Assembly (NCBI GenBank): GCA_016791475.1
Contig: JAEUWI010000052.1
Coordinates: 1 to 51,504, forward strand
Origin: Candidatus Hydrogenedentota bacterium
GTDB taxonomy: Bacteria; Hydrogenedentota; Hydrogenedentia; Hydrogenedentales; JAEUWI01
DNA length: 51,504 nucleotides
Reading direction: 5' to 3'
The position numbers were made by a program, and so were the translations under genes. The notes beneath the pieces are model-generated. The model made no database searches and was not told where the DNA came from. It saw only the letters and a program-made list of their open reading frames with translations. This document shows, piece after piece, positions 755-51,504 of this stretch. Each line of letters starts with the position of its first letter. The stretch's first letter is position 1.

Positions 755-3700
755 ATGGGAACGCTATCGGGAATCAATCAGTTCGTCTGGAAGGGCGTAG
801 TGCGGGGCGCCATCGTCGTGGCGGGCACTTGCCTTGGCGTCGTGTCGGCCTGGGCCAATGAGACCCCCCCGGTAATCGATCAGGGTGACTCCCCCCTTCT
901 CGTCACGATGGACGAGGACGGCGCACCGACGGCATTTGTGGCCCCGACGCTCAGCGCGGTTGATCCCCAAGCCGATCCCATCATCTGGACGGTGAGCGTG
1001 CCCGCGACCCATGGCACGGCGTCGGTGGGCGGGGTGGGTCCGTCTCCGCTCTCGTTCTCCTATGTGCCCGACTCGAATTACAACGGCGCGGACAGTTTCA
1101 CCGTGCAGGCTTCCGACGGCACCCATTCCGATACGATTGTAATTGAAGTGACGATCAACGCGGTGAATGACGCGCCCGAGTTCGTGGGACAACTCGAATT
1201 CGCGGGAAAATGGGGCAGCACGGGGTCAGCCGACGGCCAGCTCTCCAATCCGCGCCTGATCGCGCTGGACAGCGCGGGCAACGTGTACGTTCCCGATGCG
1301 CAGAATCACCGGATACAGGTGTTTGATGCGGACGGGACCTTCCTCCGGAAGTGGGGTACTTCGGGCACGGGTGACGGGCAGCTCAATCAGCCTTCGGGCG
1401 TCGCGGTGGACGCGTCCGACAACGTGTACGTGGCGGACTATCAAAACCACCGGATCCAGAAGTTCACTTCCGGCGGAAGTTACCTGCTCCAGTGGGGCTC
1501 CCTGGGTTCGGCAGACGGACAGTTGAGCAGCCCAATCGGCATCGCCGTTGGCCCCTCGGGGCAAGTGTACGTTGCCGACAGTGGGAACGACCGAATCCAG
1601 GAGTTTGATGCCAGCGGGAACTTCGTAAGGAAATGGGGGGCCGACGGCACTGCCGATGGCGAGTTCCAAACTATTTTTGGAATTGCCGTCGATTCCCTGG
1701 GGAACGTGTACGTGCCCGATATTAGTCGTAGCGACCTGCAGGTCTTTGATGCGAACGGAACTTTTCTGCGCAAGTGGGGCCAGTCGGGTTCGGGTGACGG
1801 TGATTTTTCCGCCCCGTGGGGTGTCGCGGCGGACTCGGATGACCGAATTTATGTCGCGGAGTCTGGAAACAGGCGCGTGCAAATTTTCGAGTCGGACGGG
1901 ACCTTCGTCCAGAAATTTGGGAGCTCCGGCAGCGGCGACGGGCAATTCACTACCCCTTTTGCCATCGCTGTTGCATCGACGGGCCGGATCTATGTTGGCG
2001 ATCACAGCGGCAATCGCATTCAATATTTCGATACCTCGACTATCGGCGCGTCTGTCGCGGTATCCATGTCGGAGGACGGGAACCCGACGCCGTTTGCCTT
2101 GACCCTCAACGCGCTGGATGTCGATGCCGATACAATCACCTGGGCGATATCGAGCGACGCCACGAATGGCGTCGCGGCGGTATCCGGCACGGGCACGGAG
2201 AAGACAGTCGCCTACACGCCCATTGGCAATTTCAACGGCGTGGACAGTTTTGATGTGCAAATCAGCGATGGCCTGCTCACGGATACGGTTACGGTAAACG
2301 TAACCGTCGATCCGCAACAGGATCCGGTCGTCATTGACCAGGGCGCCGGCCCGCTGACGGTGACGATGGACGAGGACGGTGTGCCAACCGCCTTTGTCGC
2401 GCCCACGGTGTCGGCGACGGATGTCGACACGGTTGACACGCTGACGTGGTCCGTCAGTTCCCCCGCGTCCCACGGCACGGCGACGGTGAGCGGCACGGGC
2501 GTTTCACCTTCCACATTTACCTACGCGCCCGATGCGAACTTCAACGGCTCGGATGCGTTTACGGTTGAAGTGAGCGACGGCACGGATGCGGACACCATAG
2601 TTGTTGAAGTGACGATCGGCCCGGAAAACGACGCGCCGGAATTTCTGGGCGCCATCGGCTTCGATATCCGCTGGGGCGCGCCAGGTACTGGAAACGGCGA
2701 GTTGAACGAGCCAGCCCAACTCGCGGTGGACGCCTCGAACAACGTCTATGTCGCCGACTCGGCCAACCATCGCGTGGTGGTCTTCGACGCGAATGGGAAT
2801 TTCTTGCGCACCTGGGGTTCCGTCGGCACGGCCGATGGACAGTTCACGAACCCAATGGGTATTGATGTGGACGCCGCCGGTTACGTCTACGTGGCGGAGA
2901 ACTCGGGCAACCGCGTGCAGAAGTTCGACGCGAACGGCAATTTCGTTCTCAAGTTCGGCGAAGTGGGCACGGATCCGGATCAATTTCAGGGGCCGAGCGA
3001 TATCGCGGTGGGTGCTTCGGGCCATATCTATGTGGCGGATATCAGTTACAGCCGAATTCAGAAATTCGACGCCACGGGCGCGCACGTGACCACCTGGGGC
3101 ACCTTTGGAACGGGCGATGGCGAATTGCAGAACCCGAGCGCGATCACGCTGGACGGTGCCGAGAATGTGTATGTCACGGACCGATTGAACCACCGCGTCC
3201 AGGTATTCACGTCAACGGGCACTTTCGTGCGGGCTTTCGGCTCGAACGGAACGTTGAACGGTCAGTTCAGTTCGCCCTACGGAATCGATTTCGGTCCGGA
3301 CGGGTTTCTCTATGTGTCGGACAGCAACAACCGTCGGGTGCAGGTGTTCACCACCACCGGCGAATTCGTGAGCACCTTCGGTTCTCAGGGTACCGCGGAC
3401 GGCCAGTTCAGCTATCCCTTCGGCATCGCCGTTGGCGGTAACGGAACGATCTTCATCGCCGATCTCGTCGGCGCCATGATCCACCGCTTCTCGCGCGCGG
3501 ACGCATCGACTGTTAGCGTGACCATGGATGAAGACGGCACGCCGACGCCCTTCAGCCTCACCTTGAACGGTGTGGACGTGGATGCCGACACGATAAACTG
3601 GAGCATCGGCACCCAGGCGACTCACGGCGAAGCGTCCGTCAGCGGCACGGGCGCCAGCCAGCCGGTAAGCTATACGCCGGACGCGGACTACAACGGTTCG

Positions 3701-6700
3701 GATAGCTTCGTGGTGTCCATTTCCGACGGTAATGGCGGTACGGATACGCTTACGGTCAACGTGACGGTCACTCCGCAACAGGACACACCGGTTATTTCCC
3801 CAGACCCGGTCAATGTGACGATGGACGAAGACGGTTCGCCGATGGCCTGGGCACCTCCCGCGGTGTCGGCGATGGACGCGGACGGCGACGAAATCACCTG
3901 GACGCTGGACTTCGATCCCCAGTACGGCACGGCGACGGTAAGCGGCACGGGGGCTTCCCCCGAAGTGCTGGACTATGTACCGGATTCGGATTCCGCTGGA
4001 ACGGATATTTTCGGTATTCGCGCTTCCGACGGCAACGGCAACCACGACACGGTCTACGTGGTGGTCACCGTCACCCCGCAGAACGACGCGCCGGTCATCG
4101 ATCAGGGCGACGGCCCGCTGACGGTAACGATGGACGAGGAAGGCACGCCCACGGCGTGGGCCGCCCCGACTCTGAGCGCTGCGGATATCGACGGCCCCAC
4201 CAACTCGCCGGGAAGCAATGAGCAGGGCGATCCCACGCCCCAGGATCCGGTCGGCGATGAGCTTTCCTGGTCGGTGTTGACCCAGGCCTCCCATGGCACG
4301 GCGACCGTGTCGGGCGACGGGGCTTCACCGCTGACCTTCGACTATGTACCCGAGGGCAATTTCTTTGGTTCGGACAGTTTCGTGGTGCAGGTGTCGGACG
4401 GCAACGGCGGCACGGACACGATCCAGATTGACGTGACGGTAAACAATACCCACGACGCGCCGGTGATCGAACAGGCGGATCCGCTGGCGGTGACGATGGA
4501 CGAAGACGGCGCGCCTATTGCGTGGGACGCCCCCACGGTGATGGCCCAGAATCCGGACAGCGTGGCGCTCTCGTGGTCCGTGCTGACCCCGGCGACGAAT
4601 GGCGTGGCGACGGTATCCGGCGGCGTCTTGTCTCCGTCGGTGTTCGACTATGCGCCGAATGCCAACTTTAACGGTTCCGACAGCTTTGTCATCCAGGTGT
4701 CGGACGGCGATGGTGGCACGGACGAGATCACGGTGAACGTGACGATCAATCCGGTGAATGACGCGCCCGCCATCACGCAGACGGGGCCGATCACGGTGAC
4801 CATGGACGAAGACGGCACGCCGGTGGCCTTTGTGGCGCCGGCGGTCGACGCGACCGATGCGGACGGCGACCCGATCACCTGGAGCCTCGCGGTTTCCGCT
4901 TCGAACGGCGTTGCCACGGCCGACGGTGAGGGCGCGAGTCCGACGGAGTTGACCTACACACCCGCCGCGAACTTCAACGGTTCGGACAGCTTCACGCTGG
5001 AAGCGAGCGACGGCGAGGCGTCGTCGCAGATCGCGGTGCAGGTCACGGTGACCGCGCACAATGACGGGCCGGTTCTGGCCCTGAACTCGGGCGTGACCGT
5101 GGACGAAGGCGGCGTGGCCACGCTGGACGCGGGCATGCTCGAAACGAGTGACGTGGACGACGGGGCTTCGGATCTGACCTACACGGTCACAGCGGCTCCG
5201 GCCAACGGCGTTCTGGCGTTGATCTCGGAGCCTGAAACCTCGGTGACCACCTTCACCCAGGCGGATTTGAACGCCGCCCAGTTGATCTACACGCACAATG
5301 GCGGTGAGACCACGTCCGACAGCTTTGCGTTCAGCGCGGCGGACGGTGGAGAGGATGGCGCGGTGCCGGTGTCGGGTGTTTTCGAGATATCCGTAACGCC
5401 CGTCAACGACGCGCCGGTGCTCGACGCCATAGGCGACCGTGAAGTGGCCGAAGGGGCCACCATCACGTTCGGCGTGTCCGCAAGCGATCCCGAAGGCGAC
5501 ACACTGACCTTTGACGCGGCGGCGTTGCCCTCGGGCGCGAGCTTCGATCAGGAAACCGCGACCTTCACATGGACTCCGGCCTTCGACCAGTCCGGCGTTT
5601 ACGCGGGCGTGCTGTTCCGTGTGACGGACGATGGCGAGGGACCGTTGACCGATACCGAGACCATCAGCATCACCGTGGGCGATGTAAACCGCCCGCCGGC
5701 GCTGGACGAATTGTCGAATCAGGAAGTGCCGGAGGGCGCCACGCTGGCGTTCACGGTGTCGGCAATCGATCCCGACGGGGACGGGCTGAGCTTCGGCGCG
5801 GCCAATCTGCCCGAGGGCGCCAGCTTCGACCCGGAAACCGCAACCTTTACCTGGACACCGGGCTTTGAAGATGCGGGAGTCTATGCCGACGTGATCTTCA
5901 CGGTGACGGACGACGGCGCGCCGGCCGAGGGGGATTCTCAGAGCATCACGATCACCGTGGGTGACGTGAACCGCATGCCCGAGCTCGCCGCGATTGGCAA
6001 CCGCCAGGTGGACGAGGGGGGCGCATTGACCTTCCTGGTGACGGCGAGCGACGCGGATGGCGACACTCTGGTGTTCGGCGCGGAGAACCTGCCGGATGGC
6101 GCAACGTTCGATACGGAGACCCAGACATTCCAGTGGAATCCGGCCTTCAGCGACGGCGGAAGCCATGAAGTCACCTTCACCGTGACGGATGATGGTGAAC
6201 CCGCGCGGGGGGATAGCGAAACCATCACGATCACCGTGGGCGACGTAAACCGCGCGCCGGCGTTGAATCCCGTGGGCAATCGCGAGGTCACCGAGGGTGA
6301 CGCGCTCCAGATCGTCTTGACGGGTAGCGACCCGGATGGCGATACACTCGCCTTCGGCGTGGAGCATCTGCCCGAGGGCGCCCAGTTTGATTCCGAAACC
6401 AGGACACTGAATTGGGCGACTGTGACCGGTGATGCCGGAACGTACACGGTGACATTTGTACTCACGGACTCGGGGACACCACCCTTGTCCGACGACGAAG
6501 CCATCACCGTAACCGTGGTGGCTGGCGCCGGTGAAGGTGAGGGTGAAGGCGAAGGTGAAGGCGAAGGTGAAGGTGAAGGTGAAGGCGAAGGTGAAGGCGA
6601 AGGCGAAGGTGAAGGTGAAGGTGAAGGTGAAGGTGAAGGTGAAGGCGAAGGCGAAGGCGAAGGCGAAGGCGAAGGCGAAGGCGAAGGCGAAGGCGAAGGC

Positions 6701-7027
6701 GAAGGAAACCTGGCGACTTCGCTGCTGGAAAATTTCATGCGTGCCGACGCGAACAACGACGGTCTGATATCACGGGAAGAGTCCGCGCTGCTCTTTCCAG
6801 AACTTACCACAAGCCAGTTCGACGCGCTCGATTTGGACGGCGATGGCTTTCTGTCGCGCAATGAAATCCGCCAGTCGCAACCGGGCGGCTGCTATGGACC
6901 TGGTGCGCAGGCGGAACTGTTCATCGCGGCGTTGGGCGTTTTCCTGCTCAATTGTTTCGAGACCCTATTGAGGTTGCCCGGTCAGATCCTGGAGGTCCTC
7001 TACGGTGGCGCCACGAGGAACGAGTGA
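755..7027 (+). CDS. Giant exported surface protein: cadherin-like repeats, two six-repeat NHL propellers, (Glu-Gly)n, EF-hands, GGC tail
   Basis: This 2090-residue protein starts at an ATG 6 nt after AGGAG and has a signal peptide (cleavage probably after AWA, residue 34). Order of parts: a cadherin/tandem-95-like domain (38-137); six NHL repeats (about 146-430); two cadherin-like domains (433-630); six more NHL repeats (about 630-916); five cadherin-like domains (about 920-1440), recognisable by VTMDEDG at the start and FNGSDSF near the end of each; one CSPG4-type repeat (about 1441-1555); four putative-Ig domains ending TVGDVNR (about 1556-1925); 29 Glu-Gly dipeptides (1927-1984); two EF-hands (DANNDGLISREE, DLDGDGFLSRNE); then GGC and a hydrophobic tail with RLPGQIL. 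Six NHL repeats fit one closed beta-propeller, so two propellers are likely. The domain types point to adhesion or glycan/protein binding at the surface; no enzyme domain is visible. Confidence 0.93.
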   Translation: MGTLSGINQFVWKGVVRGAIVVAGTCLGVVSAWANETPPVIDQGDSPLLVTMDEDGAPTAFVAPTLSAVDPQADPIIWTVSVPATHGTASVGGVGPSPLSFSYVPDSNYNGADSFTVQASDGTHSDTIVIEVTINAVNDAPEFVGQLEFAGKWGSTGSADGQLSNPRLIALDSAGNVYVPDAQNHRIQVFDADGTFLRKWGTSGTGDGQLNQPSGVAVDASDNVYVADYQNHRIQKFTSGGSYLLQWGSLGSADGQLSSPIGIAVGPSGQVYVADSGNDRIQEFDASGNFVRKWGADGTADGEFQTIFGIAVDSLGNVYVPDISRSDLQVFDANGTFLRKWGQSGSGDGDFSAPWGVAADSDDRIYVAESGNRRVQIFESDGTFVQKFGSSGSGDGQFTTPFAIAVASTGRIYVGDHSGNRIQYFDTSTIGASVAVSMSEDGNPTPFALTLNALDVDADTITWAISSDATNGVAAVSGTGTEKTVAYTPIGNFNGVDSFDVQISDGLLTDTVTVNVTVDPQQDPVVIDQGAGPLTVTMDEDGVPTAFVAPTVSATDVDTVDTLTWSVSSPASHGTATVSGTGVSPSTFTYAPDANFNGSDAFTVEVSDGTDADTIVVEVTIGPENDAPEFLGAIGFDIRWGAPGTGNGELNEPAQLAVDASNNVYVADSANHRVVVFDANGNFLRTWGSVGTADGQFTNPMGIDVDAAGYVYVAENSGNRVQKFDANGNFVLKFGEVGTDPDQFQGPSDIAVGASGHIYVADISYSRIQKFDATGAHVTTWGTFGTGDGELQNPSAITLDGAENVYVTDRLNHRVQVFTSTGTFVRAFGSNGTLNGQFSSPYGIDFGPDGFLYVSDSNNRRVQVFTTTGEFVSTFGSQGTADGQFSYPFGIAVGGNGTIFIADLVGAMIHRFSRADASTVSVTMDEDGTPTPFSLTLNGVDVDADTINWSIGTQATHGEASVSGTGASQPVSYTPDADYNGSDSFVVSISDGNGGTDTLTVNVTVTPQQDTPVISPDPVNVTMDEDGSPMAWAPPAVSAMDADGDEITWTLDFDPQYGTATVSGTGASPEVLDYVPDSDSAGTDIFGIRASDGNGNHDTVYVVVTVTPQNDAPVIDQGDGPLTVTMDEEGTPTAWAAPTLSAADIDGPTNSPGSNEQGDPTPQDPVGDELSWSVLTQASHGTATVSGDGASPLTFDYVPEGNFFGSDSFVVQVSDGNGGTDTIQIDVTVNNTHDAPVIEQADPLAVTMDEDGAPIAWDAPTVMAQNPDSVALSWSVLTPATNGVATVSGGVLSPSVFDYAPNANFNGSDSFVIQVSDGDGGTDEITVNVTINPVNDAPAITQTGPITVTMDEDGTPVAFVAPAVDATDADGDPITWSLAVSASNGVATADGEGASPTELTYTPAANFNGSDSFTLEASDGEASSQIAVQVTVTAHNDGPVLALNSGVTVDEGGVATLDAGMLETSDVDDGASDLTYTVTAAPANGVLALISEPETSVTTFTQADLNAAQLIYTHNGGETTSDSFAFSAADGGEDGAVPVSGVFEISVTPVNDAPVLDAIGDREVAEGATITFGVSASDPEGDTLTFDAAALPSGASFDQETATFTWTPAFDQSGVYAGVLFRVTDDGEGPLTDTETISITVGDVNRPPALDELSNQEVPEGATLAFTVSAIDPDGDGLSFGAANLPEGASFDPETATFTWTPGFEDAGVYADVIFTVTDDGAPAEGDSQSITITVGDVNRMPELAAIGNRQVDEGGALTFLVTASDADGDTLVFGAENLPDGATFDTETQTFQWNPAFSDGGSHEVTFTVTDDGEPARGDSETITITVGDVNRAPALNPVGNREVTEGDALQIVLTGSDPDGDTLAFGVEHLPEGAQFDSETRTLNWATVTGDAGTYTVTFVLTDSGTPPLSDDEAITVTVVAGAGEGEGEGEGEGEGEGEGEGEGEGEGEGEGEGEGEGEGEGEGEGEGEGEGEGEGEGEGEGNLATSLLENFMRADANNDGLISREESALLFPELTTSQFDALDLDGDGFLSRNEIRQSQPGGCYGPGAQAELFIAALGVFLLNCFETLLRLPGQILEVLYGGATRNE
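6533..6706 (+). repeat. Hexanucleotide tandem repeat encoding (Glu-Gly)29
   Basis: Twenty-nine in-frame gaaggt/gaaggc units lie between the last Ig-like domain and the EF-hands. The 5' half is rich in ggt and the 3' half is pure ggc, as expected if blocks were duplicated separately. It parallels the tract at 1-120. Confidence 0.95.
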
Positions 7028-7653: not shown

Positions 7654-8406
7654 TTAGAAACCCAAATCGTCCAGCGCTTTTTCCTGCCGCTGGCTCTGCT
7701 CCGCCGCCGCACTCCGCGCGCCCGTGCGTCCGCGCGTTCCCGCCGCCGCTGCACCCGCATTGCTGTTGCTGTTCAGTTGTTCCTGCATGGCGATGCCGGT
7801 CATGGCCTCGCCCAGGGGCCCGCCCCCGCCTACGGGCGCCATACCACCGGAGCGCGGCGCCTGCGCGGGCATGGCCGCCGCCACCGGTCCTTCCAGCGGA
7901 TGGCTGATCGCCCCATTCTGATTGTTATAGTTGAAGGGCTGGCCGCTTTCGGTCCGGGGCATCACGGGCAAATCGCCGCTCTGGGCCAGGGCATCCAGCG
8001 TCGGGGGATAGAGGCCGGTTCGGGTGCCGTAGGAATTGATGGCCGTCTTGATTTTTTCCATCATGAGGTAATCCGCCGCGGTGGGGCCCGCATCGGTCTC
8101 CAGCACCCGGCCAATAACCGGGTTGTAGCCAAAGGCTCCGCCGTCGCCGCGGGGTGGTATGGCGTCGATAAAATTGGGTACGAGCAGATCGAGGGACGCG
8201 GGGTAGCTTCCCTTCTCCGCCTGGTAGAGGTCCACGGCCCGTTGCAGGTTCATCTGGCCGGTGTCGGTCTTGACGTTGGAGAGGGTCTGCTGAGCGGCGG
8301 TGGCCTGTTTGGCCTGGAGATCGGCCTGTATCGCGGTGGTGGTCAGCATTTCGACCATGCAACCGGGAAGAAAGAGGGCCGGGAGAAGAAATCGACAATA
8401 TCGCAT
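7654..8406 (-). CDS. Lipoprotein with two pseudopilin-like (GspG-type) repeats
   Basis: The start at 8406 is set by AAGGAGG 9 nt upstream and by a lipoprotein signal peptide with lipobox LPGC (Cys16); upstream in-frame ATGs lack both. The 250-aa product has two copies of a motif typical of the type II secretion major pseudopilin core: MNLQRAVDLYQAEKGSYPAS with a following Gly/Tyr-rich strand, and KTAINSYGTRTGLYPPTLDA with GQPFNYNNQNG. The usual prepilin FTLIE helix is absent and is replaced by the lipid anchor. The last 80 residues are Gly/Ala/Ser-rich low complexity ending in KALDDLGF. It may be an accessory of a secretion or pilus machine at the membrane; this is inference. Confidence 0.75.
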   Translation of the reverse strand: MRYCRFLLPALFLPGCMVEMLTTTAIQADLQAKQATAAQQTLSNVKTDTGQMNLQRAVDLYQAEKGSYPASLDLLVPNFIDAIPPRGDGGAFGYNPVIGRVLETDAGPTAADYLMMEKIKTAINSYGTRTGLYPPTLDALAQSGDLPVMPRTESGQPFNYNNQNGAISHPLEGPVAAAMPAQAPRSGGMAPVGGGGPLGEAMTGIAMQEQLNSNSNAGAAAAGTRGRTGARSAAAEQSQRQEKALDDLGF

Positions 8407-8431
8407 GGTTTGAAACCTCCTTATGGGGATT

Positions 8432-8437
8432 ATTATA
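8432..8437 (-). promoter_or_regulatory. -10 element for the lipoprotein gene
   Basis: A perfect TATAAT on the minus strand lies 26 nt before the start codon. No good -35 is seen at the right distance. The heptad repeat at 8451-8477 begins just upstream. Confidence 0.35.
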
Positions 8438-8450
8438 GCACAGGCGAGCC

Positions 8451-8477
8451 ATTGACAATGGACAATTGACAATGGAC
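8451..8477. repeat. Heptad tandem repeat (attgaca/atggaca)
   Basis: Almost four alternating 7-bp units, attgaca and atggaca, lie in the upstream region of the lipoprotein gene. They belong to a family also seen at 24434, 24513, 28748 and 36005. Confidence 0.85.
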
Positions 8478-8548
8478 GACGGGGAGAAGAGGGAGATGGA
8501 GGAGCGGTCGTCTTGTCCATTTTCTGCCGTCCCTGAGGTGGATTTCCG

Positions 8549-9214
8549 CTACTCGGTTACCCGTCGGCGGGTGCGGGGATACATGGCGGCCACGTCTTTG
8601 GGATAGAGCTTGCGCACGTGGTGGTACAGAAAAAGAGTGAGGAGACGCCGGGTCGCCGGGGTCATATTGGTGAAGCGCACGCCATAGCGGAGGGCGGCGG
8701 GGGCCTGCAGCTCGGTCTCCTCGTGGGCGTAGCAGATTCGCCCTTCCACGACCTGGGGGCCGTGTTCCCGGTCGAGGGCGAAGGTCATCTCCAGGGGAGT
8801 GCGCACCGGCAGCACGGGGTGGGCCCGAAGCAGGGCGCCTTCGGCGCTGAGATCCTCCATGACGGCGGAGTAGCGTTCGGGGGAATTGGGCGTGCGAAAC
8901 ACGACATTGATATCGGTGGGCACGCGCCAGGAAGTGCGGTGGGTGCGCTGATCCGCGCTCTCGCTTCGTTCCAGGATGATGCCGGATTCGGGGCGGTCCG
9001 CGTAGCGCAACACCTGCACGTTATAGGCGATAAAGCCGGTGTCGCTGTGAAACTCGAAACGCCCTCCCATGCCGGCCAGGGGATAGCAGACCCCCGGGAA
9101 GGTGGTCCAGATCTGGTTGCGTTCCAGCCCGAGGATTTCCACGAGAAATCGGTTGTCCATGAGGCAGAGGAACCCCGTGTTACCGCATCGGAGGGGGCTG
9201 GGAGGGGCGGTCAC
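8549..9214 (-). CDS. PilZ-domain protein (cyclic-di-GMP effector)
   Basis: The 221-residue protein has an N-terminal YcgR-like half (FEFHSDTGFIAYNVQVLRY, about 53-71) and a PilZ domain. The cyclic-di-GMP contact motifs are both present: RxxxR (R93, R97) and DxSxxG (D121-G126). The start is a GTG at 9214 with AAGGAG 10 nt upstream; an internal ATG at 9160 has no comparable ribosome site. It is probably soluble. PilZ proteins of this two-domain form usually adjust motility, pili or exopolysaccharide in response to cyclic-di-GMP; the partner here is unknown. It is transcribed alone or after cbiX; the 249-nt gap with a 9-bp repeat array separates them. Confidence 0.88.
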   Translation of the reverse strand: MTAPPSPLRCGNTGFLCLMDNRFLVEILGLERNQIWTTFPGVCYPLAGMGGRFEFHSDTGFIAYNVQVLRYADRPESGIILERSESADQRTHRTSWRVPTDINVVFRTPNSPERYSAVMEDLSAEGALLRAHPVLPVRTPLEMTFALDREHGPQVVEGRICYAHEETELQAPAALRYGVRFTNMTPATRRLLTLFLYHHVRKLYPKDVAAMYPRTRRRVTE

Positions 9215-9294: not shown

Positions 9295-9411
9295 ATGGGT
9301 CTTATGGGTCTTATGGGTCTTATGGGTCTTATGGGTCTTATGGGTCTTATGGGTCTTGGGGGTCTTGGGGGTCTTGGGGGTCTTGGGGGTCTTGGGGGTC
9401 TTGGGGGTCTT
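9295..9411. repeat. 9-bp tandem repeat array (13 units)
   Basis: Seven perfect copies of atgggtctt (9295-9357) are followed by six perfect copies of gggggtctt (9358-9411). The sudden change of variant suggests recent stepwise expansion. It is noncoding, between a PilZ and a cbiX gene. Related arrays are at 28627, 42926 and 51427. Confidence 0.95.
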
Positions 9412-9463
9412 GGGGGCGTATGGGGTGGCGGGCTGAGATTTTCGCACCGACCCATAGGAGCCG

Positions 9464-11477: not shown

Positions 11478-11936
11478 ATGTTGAAGTTGAATGCGAAGAC
11501 CGGCGCTGGCCGGGTGCTTGCCTGTGGTTCGTTCGTGGCCGCCGTCGTGCTGGGCAATGTCCTTTCCAACCCGGTTCAGGCCGAGGGCGTGTCGTTTAAG
11601 GACACGATTCTCCCGATTGTGAAGGATCGTTGCATTTCCTGCCATGGTCCCCAGAAGTCCAAAGGCGAGTTGCGACTGGACACGCTGGAAGCGTTTAAGG
11701 CCGGCGGTGAAAATGGCCCTATCATCGTGGCGGGCAAGCCGGAAGAGAGTTCGTTTTACAAGCTCACCATCCTGCCGAAGGACGATCCGGATATCATGCC
11801 GGGCAAGGGCGATCCCCTGACCGAAGAGCAGACCAAGGCGATTGCCGCCTGGATTACCGAAGGCGCGAACTTCGGCGATTGGAAGGGTGAGGAGGCTGCT
11901 CCCGCGGCTCAGGCGTCCGCACAGCCTCAAAACTAA
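11478..11936 (+). CDS. Small planctomycete-type cytochrome c (PSCyt1 domain), exported
   Basis: The ATG at 11478 has GGAG 8 nt upstream; upstream in-frame ATGs at 11424 and 11454 are less likely. The 152-aa product has a signal peptide (cleavage about residue 35, VQAEG) and one heme-c motif, CISCH (C53-H57 region), inside a PSCyt1 domain that fills the mature protein. Typical features of the family are VAGKPEES, MPGKGDPLT and AAWITEGA. It is almost the same over about 110 residues as the N-terminal half of the next gene, so the two are tandem duplicates. A likely role is periplasmic electron transfer linked to the DUF1549/DUF1553 protein downstream. Confidence 0.87.
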   Translation: MLKLNAKTGAGRVLACGSFVAAVVLGNVLSNPVQAEGVSFKDTILPIVKDRCISCHGPQKSKGELRLDTLEAFKAGGENGPIIVAGKPEESSFYKLTILPKDDPDIMPGKGDPLTEEQTKAIAAWITEGANFGDWKGEEAAPAAQASAQPQN

Positions 11937-12003: not shown

Positions 12004-13419
12004 ATGATTGGCTTGAGAAGCATGAGCATTATGGGCCGGAAGCTGGCCTACGGTTCCGTCGTGGCCGGTCTTGTTCTGGGCGCGTCGCCCCGAGCCGGCG
12101 CGGAGGGGGTGTCGTTCAATGATACGATCTGGCCGATCCTTCAGGAACGGTGTATCTCTTGCCACGGCGGAGACAAAGACAAAGGCGGCCTGAAGCTGGA
12201 TTCGCTTGAGTCCTTCACGAAAGGGGGCGAAAACGGCCCGATTTTCGTGGCGGGCAAGCCCGAAGAGAGCGCCCTGTATAAACTCACGATCCTGCCCAAG
12301 GACGATCCGGACATCATGCCGGCCAAGGGTGATCCGCTGACGGAGGAACAGACGAAAGCGATCCACACCTGGATCACCGAAGGCGCAAACTTCGGTGACT
12401 GGAAGGGTGGCGCGGCGCCCGCCGATCAGGCCGCCGCTCCGGTGGACGTGCTGGAGGTGCTCGCGCAGAATACGGCGCCCGCCGATCCCGCCCAGCTCGA
12501 AGCGGTGACGGCCCTCGGCGGTCTGGCCATGCCGCTGGACATGAAAACGCCGTTGGTTCGCGTGGACTATCATCTCGTCGGCGACGCCATCGGCGACGAG
12601 CAACTCGCGACGCTTACGCCGCTGTGCAACCAGTTGACCTGGCTGAATCTGGCCGGCACGAAGATCACGGATGCCGGTCTGGCGACCGTGGCCGGCCTTT
12701 CCAAGGTCACGCGGCTTCACTTGGAGCGCACGGGTATCACGGACGCCGGTCTGGCCCATCTGGCCGGTCTGACGAATCTGGAGTACCTCAATCTCTACGG
12801 TACCCAGGTGACGGACGCCGGTCTGGCCCAGCTTGCCCCGCTGACCAACTTGAAGAAGATCTTCCTGTGGCAGACGGGTGTGACGGCGGCCGGCGCGGAT
12901 ACGCTGAAGGCCGCGCTTCCGAACCTGAAGGTCGATCTGGGCATTGACCCGGCGGCTGTCCCCGCGACGGCGGTGGCGAAGGTCATGCCGAAGGAGTTGT
13001 TCACGGCGGATAGCTGCTGCGCCAAGTCCGCATCGGAAAACAAAGTTTGCGACCACCCCTGCTGCGACGAGGCCCGGAAGGCCAATACCGTGTGCACGAA
13101 GTGCAACGCCGGCGCGGAAGCGCTGCTGGCGATCGTGACCAAGTTCGACGCCGACGGCTGCTGCTTGAAGGCTTTCGACGGCGGCAAGTTGTGCGACCAT
13201 CCCTGTTGCGCGGAAGCGTGGGCGGCCAAGACCGCGTGCGCAAAGTGCAACCCGAAGGGCGCCGCGGCCACAACACCCGCTCCCGTGGCGTTGAAGTTCA
13301 AGGATGGCAGTTGCTGTGCGACGGCCCAGGCCGCGAACAAAGAATGCGATCATCCCTGCTGCGTGGAAGCCCGCACGGCGGGTGCGGTCTGCAAGAAATG
13401 CAATCCGGACGTAGCCTGA
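12004..13419 (+). CDS. PSCyt1 cytochrome c + leucine-rich repeats + three Cys-rich CC-CDHPCC-CxxC repeats
   Basis: The start at 12004 has GGAG 7 nt upstream; an ATG at 11986 is an alternative. Signal peptide to about residue 33, then a PSCyt1 domain with heme motif C50-C53-H54, then about four leucine-rich repeats of the TDAGL type (about 195-310). The last 135 residues hold three copies of a repeat: SCC...VCDHPCC...CTKCN (about 337-370), GCC...LCDHPCC...CAKCN (383-417), SCC...ECDHPCC...CKKCN (433-468). Each has seven Cys and one His, 21 Cys in all, with conserved Glu-Ala after the second Cys pair. This looks like a metal-binding or disulfide-rich module; I do not recognise it as a named family. 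A strong terminator follows. Confidence 0.87.
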   Translation: MIGLRSMSIMGRKLAYGSVVAGLVLGASPRAGAEGVSFNDTIWPILQERCISCHGGDKDKGGLKLDSLESFTKGGENGPIFVAGKPEESALYKLTILPKDDPDIMPAKGDPLTEEQTKAIHTWITEGANFGDWKGGAAPADQAAAPVDVLEVLAQNTAPADPAQLEAVTALGGLAMPLDMKTPLVRVDYHLVGDAIGDEQLATLTPLCNQLTWLNLAGTKITDAGLATVAGLSKVTRLHLERTGITDAGLAHLAGLTNLEYLNLYGTQVTDAGLAQLAPLTNLKKIFLWQTGVTAAGADTLKAALPNLKVDLGIDPAAVPATAVAKVMPKELFTADSCCAKSASENKVCDHPCCDEARKANTVCTKCNAGAEALLAIVTKFDADGCCLKAFDGGKLCDHPCCAEAWAAKTACAKCNPKGAAATTPAPVALKFKDGSCCATAQAANKECDHPCCVEARTAGAVCKKCNPDVA

Positions 13420-16615: not shown

Positions 16616-16635
16616 TATCCGGACAGGTGAAAACG

Positions 16636-18054
16636 ATGAAGTACGAAGATTTCCTGCTGGCCCAGACCCGGCGCCAGTTCTTTTCGCGATCGGCACGGGG
16701 TATTGGTTCGCTTGCCCTCGCCGGGCTCCTGAATCGCGTGGCCGAGGCCAGCACGAACGAAGCGAAGCTGGGCCTTATTTCTCCACTGCATCGTGTGCCC
16801 AAAGCGAAACGCGTGATCTATCTTTTCATGGCGGGCGGGCCGTCCCATCTGGAAACCCTGGACTACAAGCCGAAACTGGCGGAGCTGGATGGCCAGCCCA
16901 TGCCCGAATCGGTGACCCAGGGCCAGCCGATCGCCCAGTTGCAGGGCCAGACCCTGCGCTGCCTCGCCCCGCAGCACACCTTTGCACGGTACGGAAAATC
17001 CCAGCAGGAAATCTCCACGATTCTACCCAACATCGCGGGTATTGCCGACGATATCTGCATTATCCGGTCCATGCAGACCGAGCAGATCAACCACGATCCC
17101 GCCCAGACCTTCATGAATACCGGCACGTCCATCTCCGGGCGCCCCAGCATGGGAAGCTGGATCACCTATGGCCTGGGCAACGAAGCCGACAACCTGCCGG
17201 GCTTCGTGGTGCTGACTTCGGCCGGCGGCGGACAGAACCAGCCCATCGCCGCGCGGCAATGGCACAGCGGATTTCTTCCGAGCAAGTTCCAGGGGGTTCA
17301 ATTTCACTCCCAGGGCGATCCGGTGCTCTACCTGAGCAATCCCCAGGGTGTGAACGCGAAACAGCAGCGGGACGTGGTGGATGCGGTTCAGGCCATGAAC
17401 CAGTACCACGACGACGTTACCGACGACCCCGAGATCCAGACCCGGATCAGCCAGTACGAGATGGCCTTTAAAATGCAGACCAGCGTGCCCGATCTGGTGG
17501 ACTTCTCCGACGAGCCCCAGCACATCAAGGAGATGTATGGCACGGAGGGCTCGGACGGCACCTTTGCGTCCAACTGTCTGCTGGCCCGTCGCATGGCGGA
17601 GCGCGGCGTGCGCTTCATTCAGCTTTATCATCGCGGGTGGGATCACCACGGCGATGTAAAGAATGGCGTTGCGACCACGGCCGGTCTGGTGGACAAGGCT
17701 TCGGCGGCGCTGGTGAAGGATCTGGCCCAGCGGGGGATGCTGGAGGACACGCTGGTGATCTGGGGCGGTGAATTTGGCCGCACACCCATGGCCCAGGGCA
17801 CGGGCCGGGATCACCATATCCGCGGTTTCTCCCTGTGGATGGCGGGCGGCGGGGTGAAGGGTGGACTGACGCACGGGGCCACGGATGACTTTGGATACTA
17901 TGCCGTGCAGGATGTGGTCCACGTGCACGATTTTCACGCAACCCTGCTTCAACTGCTGGGCATCGAGCACACCAAACTGACCTATCGCTTCCAGGGGCGC
18001 GATTTCCGCCTGACGGACGTCGCCGGGAATGTGGTCCAGGCTATTCTGGCGTAA
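16636..18054 (+). CDS. DUF1501 family protein, Tat-exported
   Basis: The 472-aa product has a twin-arginine leader (TRRQFFSRSARG). I start it at the ATG at 16636, which has AGGTG 6 nt upstream; the GTG at 16627 is an alternative. DUF1501 is related to the alkaline-phosphatase/sulfatase fold, seen here in MAGGPSHLETLDYKP near the N-terminus, RGWDHHGDVKNG in the middle, and the metal-site-like VIWGGEFGRTP and GRDHHIRGFSLW near the C-terminus. It lies right after the DUF1549/DUF1553 gene, a pairing repeated many times in planctomycete genomes, so the two likely work together in the periplasm. Its 3' end overlaps the convergent STAS gene by 14 nt. Confidence 0.93.
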   Translation: MKYEDFLLAQTRRQFFSRSARGIGSLALAGLLNRVAEASTNEAKLGLISPLHRVPKAKRVIYLFMAGGPSHLETLDYKPKLAELDGQPMPESVTQGQPIAQLQGQTLRCLAPQHTFARYGKSQQEISTILPNIAGIADDICIIRSMQTEQINHDPAQTFMNTGTSISGRPSMGSWITYGLGNEADNLPGFVVLTSAGGGQNQPIAARQWHSGFLPSKFQGVQFHSQGDPVLYLSNPQGVNAKQQRDVVDAVQAMNQYHDDVTDDPEIQTRISQYEMAFKMQTSVPDLVDFSDEPQHIKEMYGTEGSDGTFASNCLLARRMAERGVRFIQLYHRGWDHHGDVKNGVATTAGLVDKASAALVKDLAQRGMLEDTLVIWGGEFGRTPMAQGTGRDHHIRGFSLWMAGGGVKGGLTHGATDDFGYYAVQDVVHVHDFHATLLQLLGIEHTKLTYRFQGRDFRLTDVAGNVVQAILA

Positions 18055-24433: not shown

Positions 24434-24468
24434 GGCAATGGACAATGAACAATTGACAATGGACAATG
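24434..24468. repeat. Heptad repeat array, left arm
   Basis: Five 7-bp units of the type caatgga/caatgaa/caattga, containing TTGACA once, lie in the divergent intergenic region. The right arm (24513-24546) is its near-perfect inverted copy. Confidence 0.85.
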
Positions 24469-28626: not shown

Positions 28627-28689
28627 ATGGGTCTTATGGGTCTTATGGGTCTTATGGGTCTTATGGGGCTTATGGGGCTTATGGGGCTT
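28627..28689. repeat. 9-bp tandem repeat array (7 units)
   Basis: Four copies of atgggtctt and then three of atggggctt, in the same orientation as the array at 9295. It lies between the MFS and ABC transporter genes. Confidence 0.95.
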
Positions 28690-28747
28690 ATGGGCGCGGA
28701 AAACTAGTATGGCAGTATGGTGAGCAACGATAACAGCAATGCATGCG

Positions 28748-28780
28748 CAACTGTCAACTGTCAACTGTCAACTGTCAACT
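28748..28780. repeat. Heptad tandem repeat (caactgt), 4.7 units
   Basis: Perfect copies of caactgt; read on the minus strand each joint gives TTGACA. It belongs to the heptad family of 8451 and 24434. Confidence 0.9.
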
Positions 28781-51426: not shown

Positions 51427-51504
51427 ATGGGTCTTTTGGGTCTTTTGGGTCTTTTGGGTCTTTTGGGTCTTTTGGGTCTTTTGGGTCTTTTGGGTCTTTT
51501 GGGT
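51427..51504. repeat. 9-bp tandem repeat array, running off the window end
   Basis: One atgggtctt and then nearly eight perfect ttgggtctt units, in the same orientation as the arrays at 9295 and 28627. It lies upstream of thiS. Confidence 0.95.

Follow-up and report, generated by a model that had tools for sequence, protein, structure and literature searches.

The three Cys-rich repeats at the C-terminus of a secreted protein from a Hydrogenedentota bacterium form part of a real domain family that has no name and is overlooked by annotation pipelines. We propose, with a probability of slightly more than one half (about 0.55), that each of them represents a periplasmic module of about 36 residues, not described before, which folds autonomously, binds metal and is accessory to a complex of PSCyt and DUF1501 proteins. 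Comparison of sequences establishes the invariant pattern of this unit, its mobility between proteins, its conserved operon and its all-or-none retention, while the bound metal is a prediction. The window analyzed here, 51,504 nucleotides in length, is one whole contig of a draft genome of 7.7 Mb.

The 471-residue protein and its genomic neighborhood

The protein is composed of a signal peptide, a PSCyt1 heme-c domain, leucine-rich repeats (LRRs) and three Cys units, in this order (Table 1). Its N-terminus is hydrophobic and ends with ...ASPRAGAEG, which reads by eye as a Sec-type signal peptide. The PSCyt1 domain, with a score of 50.3 bits against the gathering cut-off of 22, is a member of PF07635; it carries CISCH, a motif of the CXXCH type, at residues 50-54, and a PSCyt1 search within the genome itself placed it at the identical position. 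The genome has 41 PSCyt1 matches but only one protein with Cys units. The initial annotation, made from the window alone, had correctly recognized both the repeats, whose CDHPCC signature recurs at residues 349, 397 and 448, and their position behind a PSCyt1 domain (PF07635, residues 50-106) and LRRs (residues about 200-300). Its count of 21 Cys in 135 residues is exact (residues 337-471), but the first spacer, given there as eight or nine residues, is always nine.

Table 1. Features of the 471-residue protein and of the adjacent genes in the window
Feature	Position	Strand	Basis and remarks
Stand-alone PSCyt1 protein, upstream	11478..11936	+	PF07635 E 8e-14 (scanned from 11367); start codon uncertain
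Secreted PSCyt1-LRR-(Cys unit)x3 protein, 471 aa	12004..13419	+	ORF and domains
PSCyt1 heme-c domain with CISCH	12151..12321	+	PF07635 E 3.8e-13, residues 50-106
Leucine-rich repeats, residues about 200-300	12493..12939	+	PF12799/PF13516; PDB LRR sequence and fold matches
Cys unit 1 core, residues 338-367	13015..13104	+	pattern; predicted helices 338-344, 352-359
Cys unit 2 core, residues 386-415	13159..13248	+	pattern; modelled alone, mean pLDDT 90
Cys unit 3 core, residues 437-466	13312..13401	+	pattern; predicted helices 437-443, 451-458
Partner PSCyt1-PSCyt2-PSD1 protein, 1021 aa	13550..16615	+	domains; conserved next gene, natural fusion partner
Partner DUF1501 protein	16627..18054	+	E 4e-161; conserved next gene

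The window protein is encoded with a pair of the PSCyt1/PSCyt2/PSD1 and DUF1501 type known from planctomycetes, on the same strand and in the same order as in its relatives, with gaps of about 130 and 11 bases ahead of the two partner genes. In Hydrogenedentota and Phycisphaerales the gene with the Cys unit usually precedes the genes for PSCyt1-PSCyt2-PSD1 and DUF1501 proteins, and in the Hydrogenedentota loci L028, L029, L034, L037 and L038 it forms one continuous frame with PSCyt1-PSCyt2-PSD1. This conserved order, together with the natural fusions, argues for a physical complex, which the Cys-unit protein would form with the PSCyt2-PSD1 and DUF1501 proteins. The stand-alone PSCyt1 protein encoded upstream has an orthologue in another genome (G001) that combines two PSCyt1 domains in one chain. 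According to a published account of PSCyt proteins, their function is unknown and a role in carbohydrate metabolism has been suggested; its passages on PSCyt/PSD architectures of Verrucomicrobia mention no LRR-Cys subunit (PMC5615132). A literature search for DUF1501 together with DUF1553, or for Cys repeats of this kind in these phyla, returned nothing useful.

Conservation and distribution of the Cys unit

Each unit of the window conforms to the pattern CC-x9-C-D-H-P-CC-x9-C-x-K-C-N. In a set of 102 distinct natural units, drawn from Hydrogenedentota, Planctomycetota and Verrucomicrobiota, no unit lacks any of the seven Cys or the His, and in 101 of them the spacing is also exact, one spacer being different in the remaining unit; the possibility, raised in the initial annotation, that the Cys residues are not conserved in homologues is thereby contradicted. 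Since these 102 units had been gathered with a Cys pattern, a hidden Markov model (HMM) free of such a filter was also applied to 10,115 ORFs from the retrieved loci, and it revealed no degraded units except for one frameshifted copy (L050) and fragments at chance level. In L050 (about 7700-8600) the frameshift lies within the Cys unit and joins the following PSCyt1 gene in frame, which may reflect either a sequencing error or a natural fusion.

The Cys region is under purifying selection (dN/dS 0.07-0.14). Both congeneric orthologues examined keep all 21 Cys, with five and seven synonymous changes in Cys codons, and the respective dN/dS values of this region (0.137 and 0.067) are lower than or similar to those of the LRR and heme parts. 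For the LRR part, 19 genomes have a close orthologue (E below 1e-40), and 17 of them possess Cys units. The other two (G009 and G011, loci L159 and L160) encode orthologous PSCyt1-LRR proteins with an acidic C-terminal tail and no Cys unit, and are natural deletion variants of the Cys tail. Thus, the tail is accessory and inessential to the core function, but constrained when present.

The unit was detected in 17 of the 68 genomes of the phylum to which the window belongs, with E-values down to 1e-22, hence far above chance. Its nearest relatives from named genomes come from metagenome-assembled genomes (MAGs) of Hydrogenedentota. In a sample of 388 genomes from the phylum that includes L045, which is titled Verrucomicrobia, 12 have the unit; in a sample of 392 from that of L047, which is titled Phycisphaerales, 7 have it after exclusion of two chance-level matches. 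Both samples include the seed genomes. One extra match is in a MAG labelled as Proteobacteria (L051). The architectures vary considerably. Hydrogenedentota have one to six units behind PSCyt1 and LRRs, and Phycisphaerales a single unit at the end of a DUF2231-PSCyt1-LRR protein. In other planctomycetes the units follow LRRs without PSCyt1 (L040, L041, L053), precede in three copies a 3-keto-disaccharide-hydrolase domain (L043, L046), or occur singly behind DUF1579 (L099). In Verrucomicrobiota the unit forms small secreted proteins of 60-90 residues on its own. This occurrence, both alone and on varied proteins, characterizes the unit as a mobile, autonomous domain, and the stand-alone proteins show that it can act by itself. 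The stand-alone verrucomicrobial gene adjoins tRNA-Gly(CCC) in 7 of 11 genomes (L106-L109, L111, L112, L114), and in several genomes homologues of recR and dxs (named by eye from the sequence) are nearby. No metal genes were found beside the stand-alone genes, whose recurrent neighbors are those mentioned and other housekeeping genes; therefore, guilt by association is of no help here.

Searches of Pfam, NCBIfam and PDB sequences gave no match to the Cys units. A profile of the unit hit nothing among the PDB sequences, even at E up to 10, the metallothionein models of Pfam and NCBIfam did not match (20 and 85 units searched), and a Foldseek search of the PDB with a single-unit model returned no chain, at a power that is limited for 47 residues. 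Among the fold matches listed for the full-length model there are only LRR proteins. The view that no named domain contains this repeat has thus been upheld at the level of family models, PDB sequences and PDB folds, and no known disulfide-only domain matches; such a match was the outcome that, according to the initial annotation, would disprove its proposal. Matches to PHROGs families of unknown function (E 0.002 and 0.008) were weak and were put down to Cys composition; a mobile-element origin was likewise dismissed, with no plasmid match and no relative on a viral contig.

Candidate ligands and competing explanations

The two halves of the unit, CC-x2-A-x3-G-x2-C-x-H and CC-x-E-A-x3-G-x2-C-x-K-C, align in register, and their likeness exceeds that in 99% of column shuffles (p about 0.005). 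AlphaFold2, which leaves metals out, predicts for a single unit of 47 residues (with 85 units as input) a fold of mean pLDDT 90 with helices at positions 13-19 and 27-34, each beginning at or beside a CC pair. In the full-length model (pLDDT 85, pTM 0.50) the pair of helices recurs in all three units, with linkers of low confidence. The 30-residue core contains only about 2.5 large hydrophobic residues, i.e. it has almost no hydrophobic core, yet the predicted fold is confident; hence, something else must hold the unit together.

Metal is the preferred candidate for this role, given the odd and invariant number of Cys, the His that never varies and the lack of a core. Seven Cys leave at least one thiol unpaired per unit and, together with the His, provide eight possible ligands. 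Heme-c proteins cross the membrane unfolded via Sec, whereas the insertion of Fe-S clusters takes place in the cytoplasm. The 471-residue protein, as a carrier of heme c, would thus be exported unfolded by Sec and would acquire its metal in the periplasm; by this reasoning we reject an iron-sulfur cluster as unlikely. The eight invariant side chains, arranged in the half-repeats CC-x9-C-x-H and CC-x9-C-x2-C, would coordinate metal, either Zn(II) at about two ions per unit or Cu(I) in a small thiolate cluster, and the metal would substitute for the hydrophobic core. Zn(II) and Cu(I) would be the natural candidates. One to six units in series would then give a PSCyt1-LRR subunit, acting together with the PSCyt2-PSD1 and DUF1501 proteins, an accessory tail that holds metal. 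Against this reading stand the oxidising periplasm, where disulfides are plausible, the lack of a homologue of known function, and stand-alone genes that do not lie beside metal genes, while the two orthologues devoid of the tail speak against the module as an essential part.

The main rival is a disulfide-only fold, which we consider rather less probable. Three disulfides within the unit would hold both short helices, the seventh Cys would link units or partners, and the tail would serve as a rigid spacer or a dimerisation arm. The periplasmic location indicated by signal peptides and heme c, as well as the absence of a hydrophobic core, would agree with such a module, and so would the CC pairs at x9 spacing, which recall the disulfide-linked twin CX9C proteins (PMC7909247). 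However, seven is an odd number for disulfides, and the seventh Cys is kept even in the stand-alone proteins with one unit; the His, invariant in all units of the set, would be needless, and no known disulfide domain matches.

With the twin CX9C (CHCH) proteins the unit shares two C-x9-C elements in a short two-helix arrangement (C339-x9-C349 and C354-x9-C364 in unit 1, and likewise in 101 of the 102 units), extra adjacent Cys (CC), and a setting that is oxidising and adjacent to respiratory cytochromes. On the other hand, its predicted helices have only 7-8 residues and, in the AlphaFold2 model, those at 338-344 and 352-359 stop before C349 and C364, so that they do not span the pairs one by one; the halves are linked by x-H-P-C only, and the invariant His and the terminal CxKCN are additional. 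With no PDB sequence or fold match either, we do not assign the unit to this family in spite of its spacing.

It is tempting to go beyond the metal-binding module and to regard the unit as the founder of a family of metal-thiolate modules that would be new, periplasmic and widespread in Hydrogenedentota, Planctomycetota and Verrucomicrobiota, and the multi-copy tail of which would supply or buffer metal for the PSCyt2-PSD1/DUF1501 machinery. This extension is speculative, and we think it improbable. That machinery is very abundant, and if the extension were true, the Cys tail would be its metal supply or buffer. The Cys-unit protein, as a conserved third subunit whose candidate cofactor site is distinctive, offers a handle on the role of the PSCyt/DUF1501 complex, and the small stand-alone proteins are easy to produce and analyze.

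A narrower form of the metal explanation, in which the units would store or relay Cu(I) specifically for the neighboring heme/PSCyt2 complex, is possible but not specifically supported, and we judge it improbable. In Cox17 the CC pair binds Cu(I), with the CX9C pairs forming disulfides (PMC7909247); the number of units, from one to six, is as expected of an additive store, and the PSCyt1 context is constant in Hydrogenedentota. Nonetheless, no copper genes are found among the annotated genes near that of the 471-residue protein, Met-rich and CxC motifs are absent, and the unit also occurs without any cytochrome. The suggestion of the initial annotation that the repeats are a metal cluster or store next to an electron carrier therefore survives in part: a metal site is the best inference, but a store linked to the cytochrome is weakened by units that occur alone or on non-cytochrome proteins and by the two orthologues that dispense with the tail.

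In copper storage proteins (Csps), the Cys line the core of a four-helix bundle, and Csp1 has a Tat signal (PMC7558416). Csps resemble the window protein in their many Cys, the existence of a secreted form (Csp1) and the possible Cu(I)-thiolate chemistry; however, the window protein has a Sec-like signal and separate units, each with two short helices in the AlphaFold2 model instead of a four-helix bundle, and shows no sequence or fold match to them. Bacterial metallothioneins of the SmtA type are likewise small, with many Cys, one or a few His and a minimal hydrophobic core, but the Cys unit has no CxC motifs, is secreted, repeated and fused to LRR or cytochrome domains, and matches no metallothionein sequence in Pfam, NCBIfam or the PDB. 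At most, Csps and metallothioneins share chemistry with the unit, and we file it under neither.

Finally, it is highly improbable that the terminal C-x-K-C-N is a degenerate c-type heme site, derived from CXXCH, that once carried heme: two planctomycete units (L041 unit 1 and L119 unit 1) do read CFKCH, which has the form of a heme-c attachment motif, but these are the only ones among the 102, all three units of the window read CXKCN and lack CXXCH, and such an origin would not account for the other five Cys or the CxH.

Other repeats in the contig

Apart from the Cys repeats, the contig contains a 9-base tandem repeat, (GGGTCTTNN)n, at 9297-9416, 28627-28694 and 51428-51504, the last of these at the contig end. 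A pattern of three such units has 412 matches in the genome (233 forward and 179 reverse) on many contigs, as opposed to none for a reversed control; (GGGTCTTNN)n is a genome-wide repeat family, and its copies may break the assembly. Hexamer arrays of GAAGGC and GGTGAA are located at 1-119 and 6530-6705, the latter within the gene (755-7027) of a 2090-residue NHL/cadherin-like/Ig protein, and seven-base tandem repeats, CAACTGT and CAATGGA, at 28748-28780 and 24436-24468.
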